From: Amoebophrya sp. AT5.2
Lineage: Eukaryota; Sar; Dinophyceae; Syndiniales; Amoebophryaceae
Assembly: GCA_005223375.1 (NCBI GenBank)
Contig: RXOD01005876.1
Location: 1-12,172 of the forward strand
DNA: 12,172 nucleotides
Direction: 5' to 3'
Numbering within the stretch: the first letter of the stretch is position 1; each line of letters begins with the position of its first letter. The notes beneath the pieces were generated by a model. It worked only from the letters and a program-made list of their open reading frames with translations, was not told the DNA's origin and did no database searches. Below, piece after piece: positions 1-12,172 of the stretch. The position numbers were made by a program, and so were the translations under genes.

Positions 1-85
1 TCATACCAGACCAACTACCAGACGAACCACAAGACCGCCACCACCAGAACAATGGCCAGGAAAATGGGTTGACCCCCCCCTTAAC

Positions 86-919
86 GACTTCGCCACCGAG
101 TCCTCGGTGACCAGTTTGGACAACCCGAAGTCCGCGACCTTCACGTCGAAGTAGGTGGTCAGCTTCCCGTTCTCCTTCACGGAAACCTCCTTTCCGACCA
201 GGATGTTCTCCGGTTTCAGGTCCCGGTGGATCACGTGCGCGGCGTGCATGTAGGCGATGGCCTCGATGAGCGGTTGAAACACGTACTTGGCCTCCACCTC
301 CGCAAGCCCCTTGCGCTCCGCAATCTTGTCAAACAAGTCGCCGTTGGACACATACTCCATCACCAGGTACACATGCTTGGCGTCGCGGAGAGTCTCGATC
401 AAGTTCACCTGTGTGTTGTTCGTTCATCCGTGCGCTTCATCCGATTTTTGCAGTGATATCATGATCATGATGCTGCGACTACTACAACAAACATATACGC
501 ACAAGTCTCCTAAGGACCAATGAATCCCTGGTCAACGGCTGCCGATTGAAGTCCATACTCGATCCATCGATCCATCACAACTGAGTTGAACTCCGACGTT
601 AACGATCACCATCAAGCTCAATTTTCAAAACAAGCGAACAAATCCAAAGTACGATTTTCGGATGGTGCAAGTTCTGCAGGATCTGCGCTTCCTGCAGCAG
701 GTGCGCGACCTGGGTTTCGCGCTCCGTCTCGTCCAAAACGCGTCTGTGTTCCACCACCTTCACTGCGTACGGGGTTTCGGTGTTCACGTCAGACTTCTTC
801 CTGCACTTGAACACGCGCGCTTGCATCCCGCCGCCCAACTCCTCCAGCAGGACATAGGGGTATGCCGGATCCCCGAACGTGTGCACCTTCAGCGCCGAAC
901 CAGAAGCACGAGGGTCCAT
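86..919 (-). CDS. CAMK-like Ser/Thr protein kinase, N-terminal part (two exons, runs off the left edge)
   Basis: Transfers phosphate from ATP to Ser/Thr of a protein substrate that cannot be deduced. Exons: 919-653 (89 codons) and 408-86 (phase 2 at the end). Start is the first true ATG, at 919; the frame is open just upstream but has no other ATG. Visible: glycine-loop region LGGGMQARVF (residues 29-38; third glycine replaced by Ala), YAVK with the ATP-binding Lys54, probable alpha-C Glu77, hinge VMEYVSNGDLF (about 105-115), HRDLKPEN (150-157, catalytic Asp152) and DFGLSK (Asp182). A 20-residue stretch between HRDLKPEN and DFG is longer than usual. The exon 1/exon 2 join gives HHPKI-VNLIETL, as expected for a kinase. 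After residue about 196 the family expects a CGTPxYxAPE-type segment; the open frame instead runs into an eight-G tract and Gly/Val-rich sequence, so an intron probably starts near 85 (GTTAAG) or 75 (GTCAAC). The CDPK and CHK2-like subfamilies are both possible. The start and the C-terminal boundary are the weak points. Confidence 0.85.
409..652 (-). other. intron 1 of the kinase gene (244 nt)
   Basis: Donor GTACTTTGG and acceptor ACACACAG, phase 0. Removing it joins HHPKI to VNLIETL, which restores the contiguous alpha-C to beta-4 region of the kinase fold. Confidence 0.85.
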
Positions 920-2116
920 CTTCGCGAAGTCGTGGCTCACCTTGTGGCTGGTGTGAGGGGCTGTACGTAGGTACTAGCTTGGTGCCCGGGGGTAGAGCAT
1001 GCAGCTTGATTTTTAGCGCGCACCAAAAATCCAGCCCAATTGGACTGGAAGGATGGAGCAGCAGCAGAGAGAACGTAATAAACCTCCGACACAAAGGTTT
1101 AAAACGCACACAGTGCCGTAATACCGTACTAGTGTAGTCCACAAGGAGTTGCAGCAAAATGAATCAATTATAGATGCGATGTAGTTGGAAATTGGTGGTA
1201 AAAACCACTGCGACGCCGACGTCCCATCAGATGGACTTCGTTGTTGTATCTTCTTTTCTTGTTCTACTTGGACCACGTGCACAAAATGTGGGCGTGGACC
1301 ACTTACGATGTTGTGAGAAGTCAGATGCTGTAGTAAATCAAAACTTATTTTAAAAATACCACTTTTCGTGTGGCCAATGCAATCGGCTCGTAACCAACGA
1401 GAATGAATGAATGTTGATCAAGCGATGATAAAAACGAACCACGTCCTCCAGGGCAAGAGAGTGCAAGAAGGTCTGATCTTACGGTAACTTGTAAGTAGAC
1501 TTACTCGAACACGCCAGAGCTTCTCCTACTGAACGGCTCGACAACCGATCGGAGGGGCAGTAGCGAACACCGCTCTTGGTTGTCGCGCCAGCGCAAGGGT
1601 CGGCCGCATCGCCTCTGTTTACGTAGGTATCGGTGAATTGATCTTCTTGGAAATAAAAGTAAATGGGAGTGCAAACGGAGAGTTGCTCATCAAGGTCTTC
1701 AGGGCGGCTGCCTCGCGGCCGCGGCGCGGGAGTACTTAAAGCCCAAGCCCCGAGCACGACGCGAGCGCGCCTGGCTTACTCACGTACGTAGGTTTTCCCG
1801 GCACCAGACAGCAGAACAACTTGTGCTTGTTGCGTTGTCGAATGTTGTCGAACCGAAGTCCATGTCCAAGACCATAGACCAAGTTGGAATACGTTCGGTT
1901 CCGGTTCCCGTTGTACTTGTATGTTGCCAAATGAGAATGAGTTGTGCTTGTTATCATTGGCGAGGGCGAGTACTTATTCACAGTCAGTTGTCCTCGCCGC
2001 ACGTGCTAAAGCAAGGAACGAACCAGTGGAGTTCCTTTCAGAACAAGAATTTTTCTTCAACAACCGTCCTCCAAGCTGCACGGCTTCGGCTCCGCGTCCG
2101 CGTCGGAGCTAGAGCT
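920..2116. other. spacer between the kinase start and the palmitoyltransferase stop
   Basis: I see no gene I can defend in these 1197 bases. It should hold the kinase promoter and 5' leader and the palmitoyltransferase 3' UTR. The word ACGTAGGT occurs three times (965, 1621, 1786). A GC-rich patch at about 1700-1775 lies within a minus-strand frame open for some 90 codons (1479-1757), but that frame shows no known domain and has no ATG. A small hairpin (GCTCCG 2089-2094 against CGGAGC 2104-2109) sits 8 nt past the palmitoyltransferase stop. No AATAAA is seen there. Further 5' exons of the kinase could be hidden here. Confidence 0.6.
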
Positions 2117-4387
2117 TTACACGGTCCTTTCGGCGGAACCCGCGGTCGTACTTGATTCCGTGTCCTCCTCAGGCGGGCCTTCGGCTTGTGGCGCGGTAAT
2201 TCCGAGCTCCTCGTACGATTTGGTTTGCAGGCGGGATCCCTCCTCCTGCCACTGGAGAATGCGCATTCTAATCTGCTCTGCTGCGTCGGGCGAGCATGGC
2301 TGCGGTTTTGTTTTCATTTTCGTACTCGTACATGATCTCTTCTCGAATGAGAAGACAGAGAAATAACCCAAACCCTTACGCTTTATCTGTCCTCATCCTG
2401 CTCATCGTCCGGTTCGTTCGTGTTCCTGTCGCCGGTTACGTTTCTATTTAGCGGTGGACGTGTATCCATCTATTTTTTTACTTAGAAACTCCACACGACT
2501 ACATCTTCATTCAAGTACCGGGTCGTATGCCAGCATTTTCCAATCCACGTCTCCTCTCACCGGCAGGAAGAGTCGCTGGAGCCAATTTCTCCCCAGTACT
2601 TGCTTGAAGTTCGTCCAGGAGCTACGCATGTCGTAGAAATGCGGACCGATTGGGCAGAAGACCTGGTCGGAAATCTCCACATATTCGTTCAGCTGGGGAA
2701 GATTGTACTCAAGCGCCGTTACGTTCACCGTCGCGAAGTAGACCGCCGGGCCGCCACAAGAGGTCACGATGAGAAAGAAAATCACTTCGAGAACTGTCGT
2801 CGGTTTCGGTTTAGGCATGCAGCTTTTCTCAAACTCCTCATGGTCCTGGTCGACGTACCACTTATTTCTTACAACAGTGACCATACACTTACAAGAATCA
2901 GCAATAGAGTACTTCTCTGAGTATCAAACAATCTATCGATAAAAAAGGACAGAGTACCGCAGAAGATGATGACGTCCAACCCGACGAACTGCACCATGGC
3001 CATGGCTATTGCGTAGAGCTCCGTGGCCAAGAACATTGGGTTCAGTGCGGTCAGCATCGAAAACGAGTTCGGCGACGTCGCCCACTTCTGCGAGACCTCC
3101 ATCAGAATCCTCTGAAAGCTCTCGGCGTTCTGCCTTAGCGCGAGCTGGATAACGACGACAGCGTGGAGGGCGCCCCACAGCAGGGCGACCATGGCGAAGC
3201 AGTACATCAACACGAAGTGCCCGTGGTTGTTCACCTGTCGTGTTCTTGTGCTATAAAGCATGGTGGAAGCAAGCGGACAAGATGTTCTCGCTCGCTCGAC
3301 GACAAGAACGACGTCCACGTCGGTCGAGAAAAAGAAAATTATATTTAAGGTCGTTCTTTTTTTAGAACAAGCATAGGCATAGCGATAGGTACCGCGATCA
3401 CGTTCCCTGTGAATGGGCAGTAGTGGTCCATGCGTAGCACGCACTTTCCTGTGATGCTGTCGTGGTGCGACCGCGGCGGCTTCCACACTTGGCACTTTTC
3501 GCAGAACCGCGGCGCGTACCACAAATCGAGCGGGCGCTCGTCCTTCTGTGCTTTTTCTTTCCTCTGGGCCACTGGGTTCTTTGCCTCGAGTTCGGCGTCC
3601 ATGCGGATCTCGTCGGATTTTGTTTTTGATGTGCCTTTGTTCGTGTCTGCGTTTTTTCCAGCACCCTTCGAGTCTTCATCTGCAACCGCGAGCTTGTACT
3701 TGCCGCGACGGGGGTTGGGCGGCGGAATGTACTGGTCGGCGACGTAACCGGGCTCCAGGATGGAAGCCATCACGAAGTTGTAGATTATCTGTGCGATCGG
3801 TGTTGGGTGTAGGGCGAGTAGGCGACCGATGCGACTGCTATCAGTAAATGTTGATGACGAGAAGAAGAAAACAAAGGAAGAATCGAATGTACCAGTCCGC
3901 AGAGCCAGAGCGTCACGACGAAGTTACCGTAGTACGCGAGGCCGCCGACCTCGAAGCCCATCTTCCGCATCATACTGTCTAACGCCAGGATTCCGGCTAT
4001 TGGTGTGGAGCTCACCAGTGACCACGGGAGGATCTTGAACGACCAGTGCCGCGTCCAACGTATGCACCATGGCAGCTGCTTTTTCTTCCCGCCCCTTCCG
4101 TGCGCGCCGCCCTTTGTAGTTGGCCCGCCGCCGTCGTCCTGTCGCCCTATACCGAACGAGCTTCCACCGCCGCACCCCGAGCTCACTTCGGTGTTGTCCA
4201 CGCGCTTCTGCGTGCGGAAAGAATTGGTGTCGTCGTAGTTCTGTTTCGGTGCGGGCGGTTTTCCACGCCGCTGCATGGTGGTCATTTCGATTTCGTCCCC
4301 CCCGCCCATACCGCTCGCCTGGGGCGGCGCCATGATGGTCTGAGACGGCGGCGCCGTGCTGCTCTGCGAGTTGCCGAAAGTCTCCAT
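2117..4387 (-). CDS. DHHC-family (DHYC) protein S-acyltransferase, five exons, 611 aa
   Basis: Membrane enzyme predicted to attach palmitate to cysteines of cytosolic proteins by way of an acyl-enzyme on Cys289. Exons: 4387-3893, 3788-3393, 3234-2958, 2916-2519, 2386-2117; all phases agree. Start is the first in-frame ATG; the first 100 or so residues are Gly/Ser/Gln-rich and basic just before the first membrane segment. Order: TM1 about 119-140, TM2 about 150-176, cysteine-rich domain 258-303 with CEKC (261-264), KPPRSHHD (268-275), C281, DHYCPF (286-291) and NNHGHF (299-304), TM3 about 304-330, TM4 about 364-389. An extra hydrophobic stretch lies at 431-452, then a PaCCT-like block FYDMRSSWTNFKQVLG (483-498) with LFLP. 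The tail is hydrophilic and ends SAERTV. Tyr replaces the second His of DHHC; D286, H287 and C289 remain. The second zinc site is missing (see findings). The first exon-5 residues depend on the acceptor chosen at 2387. Family assignment is firm; substrate and organelle are unknown. Confidence 0.9.
2387..2518 (-). other. intron 4 of the palmitoyltransferase gene (132 nt)
   Basis: Donor GTACTTGAA after AYDP (phase 0), acceptor GAGGACAG before IKRKGLGYFS. The donor is clear. A second phase-0 acceptor about 40 nt downstream (TTCGAG) would remove some residues of exon 5, so the acceptor is less certain. Confidence 0.7.
2917..2957 (-). other. intron 3 of the palmitoyltransferase gene (41 nt)
   Basis: Donor GTACTCTGTCC, a T6 run, acceptor GATACTCAG, phase 1. 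It joins VIIFC to EKYSIADS and links two frames that otherwise do not meet. A 32-nt alternative (GTAAGT at 2905 to AAATAAG) also keeps frame but breaks the GTAC...CAG pattern, so I prefer the 41-nt intron. Confidence 0.7.
3235..3392 (-). other. intron 2 of the palmitoyltransferase gene (158 nt)
   Basis: Donor GTACCTATC, acceptor CACGACAG, phase 0. Splicing joins PFTGNVIA to VNNHGHF, recreating the family motif that follows the active site (NxxxxxNHxxF). Confidence 0.9.
3789..3892 (-). other. intron 1 of the palmitoyltransferase gene (104 nt)
   Basis: Donor GTACATTCG, acceptor GATCGCACAG, phase 0. Splicing joins TLWLCGL to IIYNFVMASIL, completing the second membrane segment. Confidence 0.88.
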
Positions 4388-5509
4388 CCTGCTGTCGCTC
4401 TGCAGTTTCGGCTCTGTCTTGGCGAACGTGAAGGGGGCTCGGGAGTAATTTACCTTTGCCGGCGAAGTAGTCCAACGAACGATGTATTAGCAGGCGAAGG
4501 TGGTCATTGTCATAGTCATTCTCAGTTGTCTGGAAATCATAAACCGCAAAAATCAGAGTCCAAGAGGCGGGGAATGGGAAAGCAACCGCGAAATAATTCT
4601 TTCCAAAGCGGACCTACACTTACTTCTTTCTGCTACAACGTAGTGCACGACATTCAAACGGAAGCGTCCGTCGAAACAACCCGAATCCGAATAAATCAAA
4701 AAATCAAGAACGCGCCCTGCTAGTAGCTGTAGCATGCGATAAGACCACTCGAATCGATTTTGATTTCCTCAAACAATGACTCACGCGAACGAGCTGCGCA
4801 ACAGAAAATCGAGAAGATCGCTCGTGACATTTTTATTTGATCTTTCAATCAAATTTAGCAGATCAAGATCGATGTTGAGGTCGCGTACACTTCACGTCAT
4901 CCACACGACAAATTTTGGTCATGAGTTTGAGCTTCAGTCAAACGACCTCGCCCTCGGGCTCTGAATCCGTACCAGAACATCCACGAACTGTTCGAGATCA
5001 CGCGTCCCGGAATCTATTTCTACGCCACCCTCTATCAAGAATGCACTAAATTTGAATTGTGATCCAGGTCGTGATGCAGATCACTCACGCAAGAATTGTC
5101 TTGTTTCATTCTACAAAATCAAAATGTTGTACTTGTACGTAGTACCCTTTTTTACACACTCTCGGCGACGTAACAACGTTCGTCGGAAAGGAAACGCGTA
5201 TGGCTGTGCCCCGCTAGGCCTCACCTGAAAGAGAGGAAGTCAAAAATCAAGGGCGACAGCAACCGATCAGGAGTGTGACCACGAGTGACCCTGCAGGCGA
5301 CACGTGATCTCTACCTAGTTTTCTGCTGCTGCTGTCCGTTGTTCTTGTTTTGATTGAATCCAACGACTTAATCGAGGCAACGCCCATCAAGGAGATCTTC
5401 TTCAAAAACTATTTTTTTGACTTGAATTAAATTTACTTCTCCCGCTTTTGTCAGTGCATCAAGAGCTTCGCTGAAATTGAACAATAATTCACCGCCTTAG
5501 ATTGCAGCG
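4388..5509. other. spacer between the palmitoyltransferase start and the E1-E2 fusion stop
   Basis: 1122 bases with no recognisable coding sequence. All long frames are short, interrupted and without family features. It should contain the palmitoyltransferase promoter and leader and the 3' UTR of the fusion gene. AT-rich stretches occur at about 4835-4870 and 5400-5440. One partial ACGTAG word lies at 5137. No AATAAA is seen just downstream of the fusion-gene stop. Confidence 0.6.
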
Positions 5510-8500
5510 TCAGCTCAAGGTTTCCGTTTTCCCAATTAGGTCCAGGAATAGGACGGCGCCCTCGGCGCCAGTTAGCGTCGCGTGGCACACGTTCATTGTG
5601 AACTTGCTGCGCAGCACAACGTTGCCCTTCGCGTCTAATCTTTCCTGCGTTCTCCCCACGCCCAAAATCGCGGTAGTACCCCGGGGGAGAGTCGGGTTCA
5701 CTTCTTCCGGGGCGCTCTTGCCGAGCGTCGTCAGCACGTAGCAAACCGTAGAGAGGTCCTGGTCGGCCAGGGATAGCTTGCTACCCTTGGCCTTCAACGC
5801 CTGAATGTCGTCGGAGATCTCGCGCACGGTTTTCTTGTTCACTTCCCTGAGAAGCGCGACGCGGAGCTGGTTGTCCACCGTGATGGCCAGACCTGGTGGG
5901 TGTTGGTTCGTGGGTTGGCGAATCTACATCATCTACCGTAGAACGTACGAATCTTCACCAACATCACCACGCATGTGTTCTTGTTTCTTCAGCACTGCGA
6001 AGGAATGCAATGCACCACCACAGAAGCAAGTACCTAAATCTACTTTTTGTCCCTCGTTGAAGTCGAGAAAGGCGTCTCTGCTCTCGTTTAGTTTTCGGTT
6101 CAATTTCGTTGCGGCGATTGCGTCTGCAAACAGCTTCGCCATGACCGTGGTTGGCGAGACGCCCTGTTCCTTACTCTTTTGCAGCACTGACGTGAACGGT
6201 ACTTTCTCGGAAACGCCGAATATCAAGCTGTCTGTCGGCCGAACCGTCATGTTGCTCACCATCGCTCGCTGCATCGTCGTCAGTGGCTGCAAGACGGGAG
6301 AAGCGGCAGGTGGGGCGTCTCCTGGGGCTGGGGCTGCTCCCGCAGCCGGAGCTTCTACTACTGCTGCTGCTGCCCCTCCCCCTGCCTGAGCGCCACCCGC
6401 GCTTGACGGAGAGGGCGTGATCGTGCAGATCTTTGTATCTTCCGTCACATTTATTTCCGCGAGCTCTGCCACGTGAAACGCCTCCACAACGCCGTCGTAC
6501 GGGGCAACGATTTCGATCGTCGCTTTGTCCGTTTCCAGTTCGGCGACGGCCTCGTCGGCCGCGACCGCCTCGCCGGGCTTCTTCAAAAATTTTATCAGAG
6601 CGTTTTCCGCCTCGATCGGGGCCGTCACCGGCTCGACATCGGCTGCGTCCTGGGGTGTTGCAGATGCTCCCGTTGAGGACGTTGGTGTTGAAGACGCTGT
6701 CGATGTGGGTGAAGTTGACGCTGAGGTTGCCTCGGTAGTTCCTGCCAACCCCAGTTCCTGAAGTGACTGAACCAAATGGTCACTATTGAGCAGCATCTTT
6801 CCCAGCCCGTAAGGCACAAACGACGGCTCAGTCGTGCACTCCGAGAACGAAAGCGCTGTTTTCGCTTCCGGCGTCAGCTTTCGGCGAAGCGCAGCGGCAA
6901 CAGGCGCCAGAATAGCGGCATTCGGGTTTGGGTCTACAAGCAGAACGTCGTGCTTGCTCCCCGCGGACGCAGCTGCTGCCTCGTTGAAGTGTCTGGCCAG
7001 TGCGTTTGGCGCGTACGCGTACGACAGCACGAAAAGGTTGCACTCTACATTCGCCGCCGCGTTTTTCATTTGGTCTTGCAGCGTTTTGGCGACCCATTTA
7101 CTGTCCGGCCCCCAGGTCACGACGGAGAGCTTCCTCGTGCAGCTTCCCCCGACATCACTGCCGCCGTCCCCACCCGCACTGATTCTCACCCTGAGGACGT
7201 CCTGGCAGGTGATTCCCCGCTCGGACTCGATCATCTCTCTCTCCTCATCACCAACGTCCGCCAACGGTATCTTTCCGTGCAGCAGACCAAAAGCCGCCGT
7301 CGGCGCGAAGCACACGACCATCCTCCCCACGTCGTGCAGTTTGACCATCGCGGGGAGCATGCACTCGAACAGGTTCATGTCGATTGGCAACGCGCAGATC
7401 GTGTTCGCGTCTCCCGTGTACGAGCTGTATTCTGGTGTGTTGTGGTGCTCGCCGACCCGCGCGAGGATGATATCCCGCGTCTCCGTAGAAGTTCCTCCCC
7501 CAGCACTCGTCCCACCACCTCCTTCAGGATAATTCATCACCTTCTCCACCTCGCGCATCGCCAGACTGCCCCCGTCCATGATGTAGATGAAGTTCGCGAG
7601 TTCGCCCGTGTCGTACATGCGGAAAGCGGCGTACTTGATGTGGTCGCGCGCGTGCTCGTTGAAAATGGTGTGCGGGCCCTTCACGATCACCACGTTCTTT
7701 TCCGGCAGCGTCGTCCGCAAACCCGCGCCCACCTGCGCAACCTGCGCCTCGTTCGGAAGCAGCGCATGGAAGTTCCTTCCCAAATATTTCGCCTCGACGT
7801 TGTTCAACTCGCCGTAGACGCCGCCGCGGGTGTCGTTCGTGTTCGGCGTGTGGTTCTCCTGGTGCACGTAGCGCGCCTCCCGGTTTTCGGCTTCGCACCG
7901 CGAAAAGAGGCGGTTCAGCGCCTGCGCATACACCTCCGCGCCGAGGCCGGCGAACTTCTTCGTCTTTTTCTTATCCCCCAAAGCTGCGACCCCGCCCGCG
8001 GCACCTCCGCCTTTCCCTGTGAGGTAGGATGCGTCCAGGTCCAGCACATACCCTCCGTCCTCCGCATCCGTTTTCTCAATGCCGAGTGTGGACAGCCGCA
8101 GGATCTGCTCGTTGCTCAGCTGCGAGTTTCCGTGCATCGCTCTTTCCACAGCACTGTCGATGTTCTCAGAAATTGACGCGAGCTCCTGCGCGAGCGCCTC
8201 GCCCGAGGTGCCGAGGTCGGCGGCGGTGGTCACTTGGTTGAAGATAGAGGCCTTGAACGTGTCGAATTGGTACAACAGGAAGGGATCTGCCCCAGGGTGC
8301 CCGTCAGACGCATGCCCGAGAGGCCGGAAGGGGTAGGAGGAAATGCAATACGTTGGCTTCCTGCGAGTGCGATGGGAGTATATCATGCTGTGCTTGTTGG
8401 AAGAGCTTATGGCCGATCTTCTAGTACTTCTCTAAATTATTTTTTTACGACGTGCTTACTTTGGATTTTTTTTCTGCATCGATTGGTGCACGAAAACATG

Positions 8501-10325
8501 TGAGATGTTGAAGATATTGGTCGTGCTGCACGGCGAAAGTCTCATTTTAGTTGTACCCGGTCTCCAGGACATCGTCCACACATTTTCGGATCGCCTCCAG
8601 CCCTCCCGCCACGTCTTCTGCTTGCGTGACCCTTCCCGGCGTCATCAGGTCTCCGAAGGATTCGAACCGGTCCACTATTCTCTGCACCGCCACCTCCGGG
8701 TCTTCCTCGAAGGAGAGGCGGGAGCTAATGGAGGAGTTGTTCGCGTTGACCAGGAAGATAAGTGGCATCCGGAAGCCGCGCTCGCGTGCTTCAATGATGT
8801 GCTGAAACGCATGGACGGAGCCATCGGTGAACGCGCCCGTGTCCCCGTAGTTCACGACAGTCACGGGGGGGTCGGAAACACCCTCGGCGCCCATGGCGTA
8901 CAGCCGCGCGGCCTGGAATTCGGTCTCGCGCCTGAGAAATTATAAATCTGATCGCGATCTTCAAGGTGGATGGAGGTTGGAGAGCAGCGTTTCGAGTGAA
9001 GCGTAAAATCATGACGCATGGTCATCAAATCGCCCTGGTTCTTGTCGTCACTCATCCATTGCATTTTCCTTTACCCATCGCTCCTCTTCAGGAGGTACAG
9101 TTCCCGACCATGAGCCCGAATTTTATATTCCAATCTAAAAGTTGTACCCTAGATCGTTGCTTCCGGTGACCACGTGTGCTCCCTGCGGATAGAACACGCG
9201 CACCAGCGGGTTGAAGACCAGTGGGTCCTTTTCGAACCCCCCGCTCCAGTACTGGAGGAAGAAGGCCTTTGCGATCGCCTCGTTCCGCTCCTCCTCGGAG
9301 TACCCCATGCGCGCTAGCTCTTCCACCAGTATTGGCGAGCGGTAGTAGTTCGCGAACAAAAAGTCCTCGTCGCGGTAGAAGGTCGGCGTTCTGTAGAAAG
9401 GGCTCCCTTTCATCGCGTCGAACTTGAGTTTTCTACTGATGTCTCGTTTATTTTCATCATCTCCGGCGCGTGGTCCTCCTGCTCCACCTCTTCGGGCGAG
9501 CACGTAGTTGGTAAGGCCGGCAAACATGTGGCTGTACACCGCGCTGCCCGTCGTTGGCAGCGCCAGCGCCGACTTCGCGAAGTTGGCCGATACGGGCTTC
9601 GAGAACGCGACGTTCGTAAAAATCGTCTTGCGGTGGTACTCCCGCTCCTCCTGCGTCAGAATTTTGCCGATGCGGGCCCGCTGGTCGTTGCTGTCGATGT
9701 TGACGCTTCGCGCCGCGGAGGACGGCGGGGAGGAGGTGGCCAGAGTACTATTGTTGAGGGACGAGCTCCCTGCGGTCACAGTCCCCATTGTGCGGAAGTC
9801 GTGCTTCAACCCCTCCATGAGCTGATTAAAGAACTCAGGAGGCTTTCGGATCATCTTCAAGAAGGTTGCCTCATCCCCGTACCGCAGGTAATTTTCGCCA
9901 CCAGCGGAGGAGGAAGAAGCGGCCTCCGCTGTTGATGACGAAATAGATGATGAAGATGATCCACCCGCGGATGATGCATGAGTTGAAGTAGGACCATCTC
10001 CTGACGAGGATGACGAGGACGAAGCCGAAGGGGCGTCCCCGCCGCTAGCTCCACCTCCGCCGTCAGCCGCTCCCGCTGCCTTGGAGGATCTAGTACTTCC
10101 CGCTGATGCCGCCGAAAAATGCCGCACCATAGGACCACATCCTGCAACCCCCGAGGCACGAAGTGGCTTCCTCGGATGAAGCCCTCCGTCCGGTTGAAGA
10201 TACGTCTGCGGCCGCGCGTCTGCATGATACGTGCTCGACGAGAGGAGGTTTTCTCTCGACGTTTGAACCAGCTGGTGCCGCCGGCGCAGAGTTCCCGTTC
10301 CTTGTCGTGCCTTCGACCCCCACAT
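5510..10325 (-). CDS. fused 2-oxoacid dehydrogenase: E1-alpha, E1-beta, lipoyl domain, E2 acyltransferase (1420 aa)
   Basis: Predicted to decarboxylate a 2-oxoacid with thiamine diphosphate, pass the acyl group to its own lipoyl-lysine and hand it to CoA. Exons: 10325-9148, 8931-8557, 8360-6034, 5892-5510; all phases agree. Residues 1-75: Arg/Ser-rich, almost no acidic residues, with MVRHFSAAS (66-74), like a mitochondrial presequence. 76-145: Ser/Gly low complexity. About 300-640: E1-alpha, with YR motifs (311, 317, 328), the diphosphate site NYGDTGAFTDGS (420-431) to NANNSSIS (455-462), and YPFRPLGHASD (527-537). About 660-1054: E1-beta, with probable cofactor-activating Glu722 (LPNEAQ), HH 823-824, and a C-terminal domain ending PSFVPYG. 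1094-1166: lipoyl domain, ETDKAT, Lys1130. 1207-1412: E2 catalytic domain, with LPRGTTAILGVGR and active-site His1397. Ser/Thr- and Ala/Pro-rich linkers separate the modules. Substrate (pyruvate or branched-chain oxoacids) is undecided. Start ATG 10325 is the first in this exon; an upstream exon is possible. Confidence 0.88.
5893..6033 (-). other. intron 3 of the E1-E2 fusion gene (141 nt)
   Basis: Donor GTACTTGC after KVDL plus one base, acceptor CACCCACCAG, phase 1. Splicing gives KVDLG-LAITVDNQLRVALL, which matches the E2 pattern of a short beta strand followed by (I/L)A(V/I)-type sequence, so the join carries the E2 fold across the intron. Confidence 0.9.
8361..8556 (-). other. intron 2 of the E1-E2 fusion gene (196 nt)
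   Basis: Donor GTACAACTAAAA, acceptor CGCACTCGCAG, phase 2. Splicing gives DVLETG-KPTYCISSYPFRPLGHASD, the usual E1-alpha passage into the loop near the active site. Confidence 0.9.
8932..9147 (-). other. intron 1 of the E1-E2 fusion gene (216 nt)
   Basis: Donor GTACAACTTTTAG, acceptor TTTCTCAG, phase 2. Splicing gives GSNDLG-RETEFQAARLYAMG, leading into the diphosphate-binding motif. Unspliced, the upstream frame stops three codons later (at 9135). The first eight intron bases are the same as in intron 2. Confidence 0.87.
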
Positions 10326-10352
10326 TGCGTTTATTGCGGCTCGTCGCGAATG

Positions 10353-10520
10353 CTGGGTATCTCTTCTTACGTGTGGAACGCGCCGAGGCCAGCTGCGAGT
10401 TTTCTACCAAGCCTTGGCGACTAAGTATTTGATTTTTTGGAACTGGTGCGATAGCTGCGATTGGCATAAATATTAATATTTATACTAATAAGTAGATGAT
10501 ACTGTTACTACTACTAGTAC
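10353..10520 (-). other. possible 5' intron of the E1-E2 fusion gene (168 nt)
   Basis: A GTAC donor at 10520 and a CAG acceptor at 10353 (GATACCCAG), both phase 0, would join the short upstream frame ending RRSRRLVV to HSRRAAINA-MWGSKA. It fits the GTAC...CAG pattern of the other introns but has no family motif across the join to confirm it. Confidence 0.35.
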
Positions 10521-10529
10521 TACTACTAG
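10506..10529. repeat. two perfect copies of TACTACTACTAG
   Basis: A 12-base unit repeated twice with no mismatch, itself a TAC microsatellite. Copy junction 10517/10518 lies inside the GTAC that would be the donor of the candidate leader exon. A looser related tract is at about 10981-10997 (TACTGGTACTACTACTAA). Confidence 0.85.
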
Positions 10530-10652
10530 GCGTCTACTCCGTCGCGCTCCGTGGGTTCTGGCTGCGCACACTCCCAGTGCTGCTGCTGCCATTCCTCCTC
10601 TCGTTTCGCTAACAACACGCCGCATCCGCAACCTACATGGCTTCGCTCGCAT
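10521..10652 (-). CDS. candidate first coding exon of the E1-E2 fusion gene (Arg/Ala-rich leader)
   Basis: An open minus-strand frame with ATGs at 10652, 10625 and 10592 and a TGA directly before the first. From 10592 it reads MAAAALGVCAARTHGARR and then SRRLVV, with no acidic residue: a typical amphipathic, arginine-rich mitochondrial presequence composition. Splicing at 10520/10353 keeps frame into the fusion protein and would lengthen it to 1453 aa from ATG 10592. Alternatively this is 5' UTR and translation starts at 10325. It is too short to judge by coding statistics. Confidence 0.35.
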
Positions 10653-12172
10653 TCATCTGATAAAGATAAGAATAAGGATTAATATATGCACTCACGACGG
10701 CAGTTTCTCGTTCAGTTCTTCTCTCTGATGAACAGCTAATTTTTCCAGAGGCATTTACACTTTTTCCTTTGGCTTTGTTTCGGTTTCGTCTGAGTCTGTG
10801 CAACCTAAGTAAAAAATATTAGAGGTACTTCCACCTCTCCTCGATGAAATTTCGACAAAGACTACAAAGCTAAACGAACTCGAAAATTAAGCACATTCAC
10901 CAGTTTCTTGTGGCTGAGAGGGACCGCCTTCCCTGCCGGCGCTCCTGCTGCCGCAGCCAGTGCCCGGGAGCGGGACAGCGTACTGGTACTACTACTAACA
11001 TCCGTGTCCCGACCGCCTGCAAACAAGCAAGCTGTGCGTGTGAGGTGTACCCGCATGCCAGATAAAAGAACGGCTGTATGCTCACTTACAAAAAAAAAAC
11101 AAACTAACAATAAAGTGCCGATCGCGCTATGATTTTTTTTTTCTTTTTTGTTTAGCGAGAGGTCGTGCATACACATGCTATAGTGAAGAACTTACTGAAG
11201 AGGATGATCCGAAGAACATCTAATCTTCAGAAAGGTCGAAGAGCTAATACAAATATTTTTTTTAAACATTTTACTTTGGCAATGATAGTACTGACGACCC
11301 GACGCTTTCGCTGTACTTCTTCTACAGAAAGAAATTATAAATCAAGAACACGCCACAATTTTAATTATACCATTACCATAGATACCATACCATGACGCAC
11401 AACTAGAAGTAAAACTAACTCTAAGTCTGACTACGATACGACAATATCACCATCCTTCTTGCCACTTTCTCAGCGATGGGAGAGTCGATCGACGCGGCGG
11501 CCCCGAGTGTCGCCGCCGCGGTCGGTCGTTGTCGGTTCTTCTAGCTTGGTAGGTTTACCGTTGGTTGAACTACCCGCTACTTGCGCGCTGCTTTATTTGT
11601 TCCCCGCCCCTCGTAACAAGTCTCTACGGCATCGCGTACCCCTAGTAGCGTAGTGCGGTGGGCCGCGGCCACGTTGTCCGTGTCCCGTGCCATAGATAGG
11701 ACACCATAGACACGTTGGGACATTTCACATCCGCATACTTTTCCTTGTTTCAGCCGTCGTCTTAGGGTTGCTGGTCGCGTCCACTTGGACTTGGTGGGAC
11801 CCTTACGACTTATTTTTGTTCTTTATCGGACGAGCCTAGTGCGCTCGCTTAATAATCCGTGCGAGTGTGCGTTTTACTAGTCCGTCGTTGGCATTTTCCT
11901 TTTCTTCTCGTTGAACGATGAGCCTCCCGCTGTTGTAAGAGTTGTGGGCGCTCCCTAGCTGAATCCGCGTTGGGGTTGGCTTTCCCTTTCGTTGAGTTCG
12001 TCGTTGTTTATAAGAATACCACCACCAAGCGCAGATCCCGATGTTTGTAGAACTAGATTTTTTTTTTTTTTTTGTAGATCCGAGCTTACCCCCTATAAGC
12101 TGGCTCGGAAGGTCACCCACGACGCAACTCTTCCCCAGGGTGCCGACCTGGAGAAAAGAGCTATACCAGCTC
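10653..12172. other. upstream region of the E1-E2 fusion gene, no defensible gene
   Basis: 1520 bases that should include the promoter and leader of the fusion gene. A GC-rich island at about 10905-11030 lies in a minus-strand frame (11176-10862, 104 codons) that starts with a true ATG. Its hydrophobic N-terminal part comes from homopolymer A/T tracts, and its later part is Arg/Ala/Ser-rich (ALAAAAGAPAGKAVP). I do not recognise it. AT-rich sequence at 11150-11400 is followed by a second GC-rich patch at about 11480-11700 and a T16 run at 12058-12073. No tRNA, rRNA or repeat family is seen. Confidence 0.55.
11493..11520. repeat. GC-only inverted repeat, 9-bp stem, 10-nt loop
   Basis: CGCGGCGGC (11493-11501) pairs perfectly with GCCGCCGCG (11512-11520). 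It would form a very stable hairpin in DNA or in RNA of either strand. Surrounding sequence is much less GC-rich. Function unknown. Confidence 0.7.

Follow-up and report, generated by a model that had tools for sequence, protein, structure and literature searches.

In mitochondria, the E1-alpha, E1-beta and E2 components of the pyruvate and branched-chain 2-oxoacid dehydrogenase complexes (PDH and BCKDH) are usually separate proteins, and E2 has an E3/E1-binding domain. Some bacteria have fused E1-alpha/E1-beta proteins, the alphaproteobacterial PdhB has a lipoyl domain, and in actinobacterial OdhA the E2o part precedes E1o. This study concerns a gene on the minus strand of a 12,172-nucleotide stretch of DNA from Amoebophrya sp. 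AT5.2 (contig RXOD01005876.1, positions 1 to 12,172; hereafter, the window). The gene probably encodes a divergent single-chain E1-E2 of a 2-oxoacid dehydrogenase complex, and the family to which it belongs probably fills a gap reported for this genus: Farhat et al. (PMC7789003) describe Amoebophrya A25 and A120 as lacking mitochondrial PDH, BCKDH and 2-oxoglutarate dehydrogenase (OGDH) complexes.

Joining the four exons listed in Table 1 produced 1420 stop-free codons followed by TGA, beginning with an in-frame ATG at 10325. The donor site of exon 1 was GG/GTACAAC, all three introns were of the GT-AG type, and their phases (2, 2 and 1) matched, as the first-pass annotation of this DNA had claimed for a four-exon, 1420-codon frame. 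The predicted chain has a mass of 150.6 kDa before any processing, in agreement with the roughly 150 kDa given there. In the alignment with P0001, a relative from A120, all three splice junctions of the window protein were gap-free; with P0002, from A25, two of the three were gap-free and there was a one-residue gap near junction 3. A start or stop in the linker (residues 1055–1094), or a mis-assembly between 6034 and 8360, had been named as refutation. Neither was borne out: exon 3, 2327 nucleotides long, runs unbroken from E1-beta through the linker and lipoyl domain into E2, and the order is kept in other genomes. Because the identical module order was found in A120, in A25, in 14 proteins from jgi and lgn sources and in one bacterial metagenome-assembled genome (MAG), mis-assembly and chance can be set aside. 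These sequence comparisons confirmed the predicted four-exon gene as real.

Two of the modules were recognized by Pfam profiles scoring above their cut-offs (Table 1). The lipoyl domain contains the sequence ETDKA, beginning at residue 1127, which places the expected lipoylation site at Lys1130; the E2 domain ends in CHATLTG, which contains His1397. Both residues thus lie where they had first been noted, and both were identical in all 18 proteins that have lipoyl and E2 parts (P0018 has neither). No sequence profile matched E1; what identifies an E1 here is the predicted structure together with the conserved residues. Structure prediction recovered both E1 halves, alpha and beta, as a full E1 fold, and in a Foldseek search with the model of the relative P0004 the top match was OdhA (8p5v_A, E 1.3e-18, 13% sequence identity). 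Identity to BCKDH and PDH structures was about 12% in E1, and identity to the E2 core 9j1w_A was 24%. The AF2 model of window exon 3 had a predicted local distance difference test (pLDDT) score of only 66. In a residue alignment of 19 proteins (the window protein and P0001 to P0018, with P0019 to P0026 left out), Gly422, Asp423, Asn457, Asn458, His534, Glu722, His823 and His824 were invariant. The magnesium and thiamine diphosphate (ThDP) signature of E1 is GDG-x(25-35)-NN. The window protein keeps both GD and NN, with 33 residues between them and a third motif residue other than Gly; the diphosphate motif first proposed at 420–462 was located at 422–458, and the LPNEAQ sequence proposed for E1-beta is present and carries Glu722. 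Catalytic roles of the invariant E1 and E2 residues were assigned by position from the general biochemistry of these enzymes. The predicted fold and the invariant residues support the N-terminal half as a putative E1-alpha/E1-beta pair. A single chain in the order E1-alpha, E1-beta, lipoyl, E2, as the first-pass annotation had it, is supported by the spliced frame, the Pfam lipoyl and E2 matches, the predicted E1 folds, 17 of the 26 relatives described below and two bacterial proteins.

Relatives were sought in two protein searches covering 5.8 billion proteins. The searches were word-limited, with the best 7993–7996 candidates scored in each, and therefore missing lineages cannot be taken as being without the family. 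They recovered 26 family proteins: two from A120 (P0001, 1408 residues, and P0006), three from A25 (P0002, 1311 residues, P0018 and P0022) and 21 from jgi, lgn and merc sources. The Amoebophrya proteins, annotated in NCBI as unnamed products, include the closest named relatives of the window protein: identity to P0001 was 64% in the E1 part and 65% in the E2 part, and identity to P0002 was 65% and 57%, respectively. In 17 of the 26, a single chain comprised everything from E1 through E2, and its lipoyl motifs numbered one to three. The order proposed for the window protein was thus found again in A120, in A25 and in 14 jgi and lgn proteins, where a single frame occupied 72–98% of the longest contig (3.7–6.0 kb); we infer that these contigs are environmental cDNA. 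Seven proteins (P0018 and P0021 to P0026) were without lipoyl and E2 parts, some plainly cut short and others ambiguous, the end of P0022 resembling a frameshifted tail; the remaining two (P0019 and P0020) begin within E1.

A FastTree analysis of the 19 proteins grouped the window protein with P0001 and P0002 (support 1.00), P0006 with P0012 (0.997), and P0016 with P0018 (0.998). The groupings therefore define at least three clades across A120 and A25 together. The source genome (G000) contains a second paralogue on contig C1220, cut by the contig start and 65% identical to P0016. Its lipoyl and E2 parts are left (positions 1–1112 of the locus), with an intron-like break inside E2, and a 957-codon open frame adjoins it (1947–4820, plus strand). 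A search of G000 for the third clade with P0006 matched only contigs C2080 and C1220; two paralogues are therefore demonstrated in this genome.

There is also a bacterial relative. A scan of prokaryotes (one genome per species, 84,980 species), which required two peptides and was restricted in reach accordingly, gave 77 pattern-matching stretches and one relative, P0027, in MAG casp150-mb.112 (locus L036). P0027 is a single open reading frame (ORF) of 1316 residues in the order E1-alpha, E1-beta, lipoyl, E2, named 2-oxo acid dehydrogenase subunit E2 in NCBI, and is 27–33% identical to the window protein in each module. The adjoining gene encodes RimO (390 bits, cut-off 357). A search with P0027, under the same word and candidate limits, returned only P0027 itself and one 93% relative and no Amoebophrya protein, and searches from the Amoebophrya-type family did not return the bacterial proteins. 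Among five genomes examined in the order of the MAG, the fusion was present in one, the MAG itself. Canonical E1_dh was matched in this 1.9-Mb genome too, at 159 and 22.5 bits against a cut-off of 22. A scan of IMG/VR for a viral source gave 39 pattern-matching stretches and no relatives. The alignment with the bacterial pair excluded P0010, P0013, P0014 and P0018 to P0026. In two FastTree runs, this pair sat on a very long branch whose placement differed between the runs. It is plausible that the gene passed between bacteria and syndinians, in either direction. The bacterial locus also contains, at 13–960 on the minus strand, a short-chain dehydrogenase/reductase gene with an in-frame insert (HSSESWNPV...SGMT), which resembles inserts of palindromic repeats described in intracellular bacteria.

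The G000 assembly comprises 50.7 Mb in 2759 contigs, so the genome may be partial. The dinoflagellate spliced leader had 18 exact matches in it and 50 in total with two or fewer mismatches, and none in a reversed control; this and the identity to A120 and A25 are the grounds for placing the genome near Amoebophrya. Partners for a fused E1-E2 were detected: a lipoamide dehydrogenase, E3 (465 bits, cut-off 408.8), and a lipoate-ligase catalytic domain (162 bits, cut-off 27), the match to the equivalog TIGR00545 being 190.7 bits, under its cut-off of 280. No match to E1_dh or Transket_pyr was found in G000. The Transket_pyr profile should match transketolase too, and its silence makes the absence of a canonical E1 weak.

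Several results weigh against a functional single-chain E1-E2. Pfam found no E1 family in the window protein at E≤1 (E1_dh, Transket_pyr and Transketolase_C being absent), so that of the profile searches first proposed those for lipoyl and E2 succeeded and those for the three E1 families did not. E1_dh, Transket_pyr and Transketolase_C were likewise absent among the best 25 of 27 families for 18 relatives, and no E1 was found among the best 25 of 30 and the best 25 of 32 families for P0012 and P0016. Searches of NCBIfam with exons 1–3 and of the Protein Data Bank (PDB) with phmmer gave matches confined to the lipoyl-E2 part and no E1; PRK11892 was matched in the NCBIfam run via the lipoyl part only, and exon 1 gave two weak, unrelated matches (E 0.06–0.08). 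A profile from eight E1-only sequences found no E1 in the PDB, its two hits being unrelated chains (E 1.4 and 1.5), and hhalign with Escherichia coli SucA gave a probability of 0.3%. The E1 modules of the first-pass annotation are thus upheld by predicted fold and invariant residues, but to sequence profiles the E1 half is unrecognizable. The third residue of the GDG motif is T in 18 of the 19 aligned proteins and S in the other, never G. P0018 of A25 (1014 residues) has the entire E1 part and no lipoyl or E2; either its gene model is truncated or the protein is an E1 that stands alone. Finally, the missing canonical E1 in G000 may reflect introns, the exon-wise look or missing contigs.

The C-terminal half departs from known E2 proteins as well, which counts on the same side. 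The DHRxxDG motif of PF00198-family E2 is altered, Asp being replaced by Cys: in the alignment with SucB and AceF the His is kept, and Asp-1 is Cys, Arg+1 is Ala and Asp+4 is Thr. CHAxx[T/N/S]G replaces DHRxxDG in 17 of the 18 E2-bearing family proteins, the E2 end of P0006 being aberrant. In E. coli E2o, according to PMC5986005, Asp374Ala, Arg376Ala and Asp379Ala left 2.1%, 56% and 9.5% of the activity, respectively. With this motif altered, the E2 chemistry must differ or be compensated. The E3-binding (peripheral subunit-binding) domain PF02817 was not among the four families matched by the window protein at E≤1, nor among the best 25 of 27 families for the 18 relatives, although a very divergent domain could escape profiles. 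Since in some complexes E1 too is held by this domain, losing it would be consistent with covalent attachment of E1 to the chain. The chain stops 6 residues before the end of SucB and 4 before that of AceF. In classical E2 cores the C-terminal residues form inter-trimer contacts, so that by analogy a trimer instead of a cube is conceivable for the shortened window E2.

The reading that we favor can be set out as follows. The N-terminal E1-alpha/E1-beta pair, supplied by a single chain or by a dimer of two, would bind ThDP-Mg, decarboxylate a 2-oxoacid and hand the acyl group to lipoylated Lys1130. Borne on linkers rich in Ser, Thr, Ala and Pro, the lipoyl arm would swing to the C-terminal E2 domain, which would transfer the acyl group to coenzyme A (CoA) to give acyl-CoA. 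A separate E3, soluble or weakly bound, would re-oxidize the dihydrolipoyl group, and the lipoate-ligase-like enzyme would attach lipoate obtained by scavenging. Paralogues of the fused family would then do the work of the PDH, BCKDH and OGDH complexes reported lost, acting on pyruvate, 2-oxoglutarate or branched-chain oxoacids. Since E1 and E2 are fused, we infer channeling within the chain and a fixed 1:1 ratio of E1 to E2; the acyl group could equally well pass from one chain of an oligomer to another. A mitochondrial location, and the activity, substrate and oligomeric state of the fused chain, are likewise proposals. In the first 40 residues, Lys/Arg outnumber Asp/Glu by 7 to 2 in the window protein, 8 to 2 in P0001 and 5 to 2 in P0002.

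The alternative that survives best, which we consider unlikely, is that the E1 half is dead or altered, the chain acting chiefly as a scaffold for lipoyl and E2, or in some other acyl transfer, while a canonical E1 acts in trans. The invisibility of the E1 half to sequence profiles and the altered GDG and DHR motifs are as it would predict, and a canonical E1 could escape from a possibly incomplete G000. However, the metal, ThDP and catalytic positions are invariant in all 19 proteins, a full E1 fold is predicted, and E1 is closer to the window protein than E2 in 15 of 17 two-part relatives (the exceptions are P0001, with a difference of 1 point, and P0017, with one of 2; P0018, without E2, was excluded); moreover, Farhat et al. 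(PMC7789003) report that A25 and A120 lack mitochondrial complexes of the PDH, BCKDH and OGDH types. That report, with the lack of a canonical E1 in the G000 search, also speaks against an ordinary split-subunit PDH or BCKDH being present beside a fused chain of minor, specialized function, for example on an unusual 2-oxoacid; we hold this still less probable, even though there are several paralogue clades and the MAG with the fused gene carries canonical E1_dh matches. An artefact of gene model or assembly, with neighboring E1 and E2 genes wrongly spliced together, was rejected as highly improbable: P0018 does stop after E1, but E1-beta to the start of E2 lies in one 2327-nucleotide exon, which refutes it outright for that part, and the order is repeated in the independent genomes of A120 and A25, in the 14 jgi and lgn proteins and in a bacterial single ORF.

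PMC7789003 describes annotation by InterProScan and KEGG and a lack of canonical thiamin and lipoic acid routes, and PMC9478091 describes a dinospore transcriptome in which tricarboxylic acid (TCA) cycle genes and a mitochondrial pyruvate carrier are on and OGDH is marked by a question mark. This plankton parasite has active TCA genes and lacks a published complex for making mitochondrial acetyl-CoA from pyruvate or succinyl-CoA from 2-oxoglutarate; both reports might be accounted for by an E1-E2 family of divergent sequence. Fused E1-E2 proteins occur in all three Amoebophrya-type genomes that yielded sequences (A120, A25 and G000), which makes the gap directly testable. A broader proposal, about which we are slightly more doubtful than confident, is that syndinians replaced all of their split-subunit mitochondrial 2-oxoacid dehydrogenases with one duplicated single-chain E1-E2 family of at least three clades, in which E1 has diverged beyond sequence recognition, E2 uses Cys-His-Ala and not Asp-His-Arg, and E3 is brought in despite the lack of the usual binding domain, the gene having moved between a marine small-genome bacterium and the lineage. 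On that proposal, the PDH, BCKDH and OGDH complexes described as lost in Amoebophrya would have escaped detection.

Table 1. Coordinates of the predicted gene, its introns and its protein modules in the window
Feature	Position	Strand	Remarks
Exon 1, codons 1 to 393 (last split)	9148..10325	-	Presequence-like N-terminus, Ser-rich region, first part of E1-alpha-like module
Intron 1, 216 nt	8932..9147	-	GT-AG, phase 2
Exon 2	8557..8931	-	E1-alpha-like core including ThDP-type motif
Intron 2, 196 nt	8361..8556	-	GT-AG, phase 2
Exon 3	6034..8360	-	E1-alpha end, complete E1-beta, lipoyl domain, first part of E2
Intron 3, 141 nt	5893..6033	-	GT-AG, phase 1
Exon 4	5510..5892	-	Remainder of E2 catalytic domain, including stop codon
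Candidate mitochondrial targeting sequence, ~residues 1-30	10236..10325	-	Composition only
E1-alpha-like module, ~residues 215-619	8057..9683	-	Interrupted by introns 1 and 2
ThDP/Mg-type motif GD-x33-NN, residues 422-458	8736..8846	-	Four key residues 19/19
E1-beta-like module (pyrimidine domain + transketolase-C-like domain), ~residues 631-1056	6746..8023	-	
Lipoyl domain, residues 1100-1163	6425..6616	-	PF00364, 41.3 bits vs cut-off 22.1
Lys1130 codon, expected lipoylation site (ETDKAT)	6524..6526	-	Motif
E2 acyltransferase catalytic domain, residues 1209-1406	5555..6289	-	PF00198, 66.4 bits vs cut-off 23; contains intron 3
His1397 codon in altered motif CHATLTG	5582..5584	-	DHRxxDG in E. 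coli SucB and AceF

Introns 1 and 2 (from 9147 and 8556) both start with GTACAACT, eight shared bases after GG, and intron 3 starts with GTACTTGC; the shared start could reflect a donor preference or related intron elements. Elsewhere in the window, two serine/threonine protein kinase frames (PF00069, 93 and 34 bits) lie at 1–973 on the minus strand, with an intron-like gap between them. A DHHC palmitoyltransferase match (PF01529, 56 bits) at about 3345–3923 on the minus strand is probably in a gene at about 2500–4486; two neighboring frames, at 2872–3675 and 3788–4486, had no Pfam match.

Comparison with known systems places the window protein apart from each of them. It resembles OdhA, the closest analogue, in that E1 and E2 activities share one chain; however, the window chain has E1 first, the opposite order, and carries its own lipoyl domain in cis, whereas OdhA uses lipoyl groups in trans from E2p (PMC10415282). 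The comparison with OdhA made in the first-pass annotation was therefore apt, and the window protein is not an OdhA, differing in both order and lipoyl supply. Unlike BCKDH and PDH, it is one chain in which no E3/E1-binding domain was seen, and we do not class it with the standard PDH, BCKDH or OGDH enzymes, whose E1 profile matches and E2 motif it lacks. The bacterial E1-alpha/E1-beta fusions and PdhB are partial fusions of the same machinery, but these E1 fusions have no sequence match to the window E1, and we know of no partial E1 fusion that continues into a complete E2. The order E1-alpha, E1-beta, lipoyl, E2 had been thought undescribed, and a search of the open-access literature, outside which most subscription papers lie, agreed in giving no description of it among the results listed; to our knowledge, there is no earlier all-in-cis E1-lipoyl-E2 chain. 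Such a chain would help to show in what way swinging lipoyl arms and E2 cores need separate subunits. P0027 shares the module order of the window protein in one ORF and differs in being bacterial, in its single ORF, in having NG for NN, and in SHREFTG at the E2 end. The closest correspondence is with P0001 and P0002, to which the window protein is homologous at full length over all modules, and it is thus a member of the Amoebophrya fused family.

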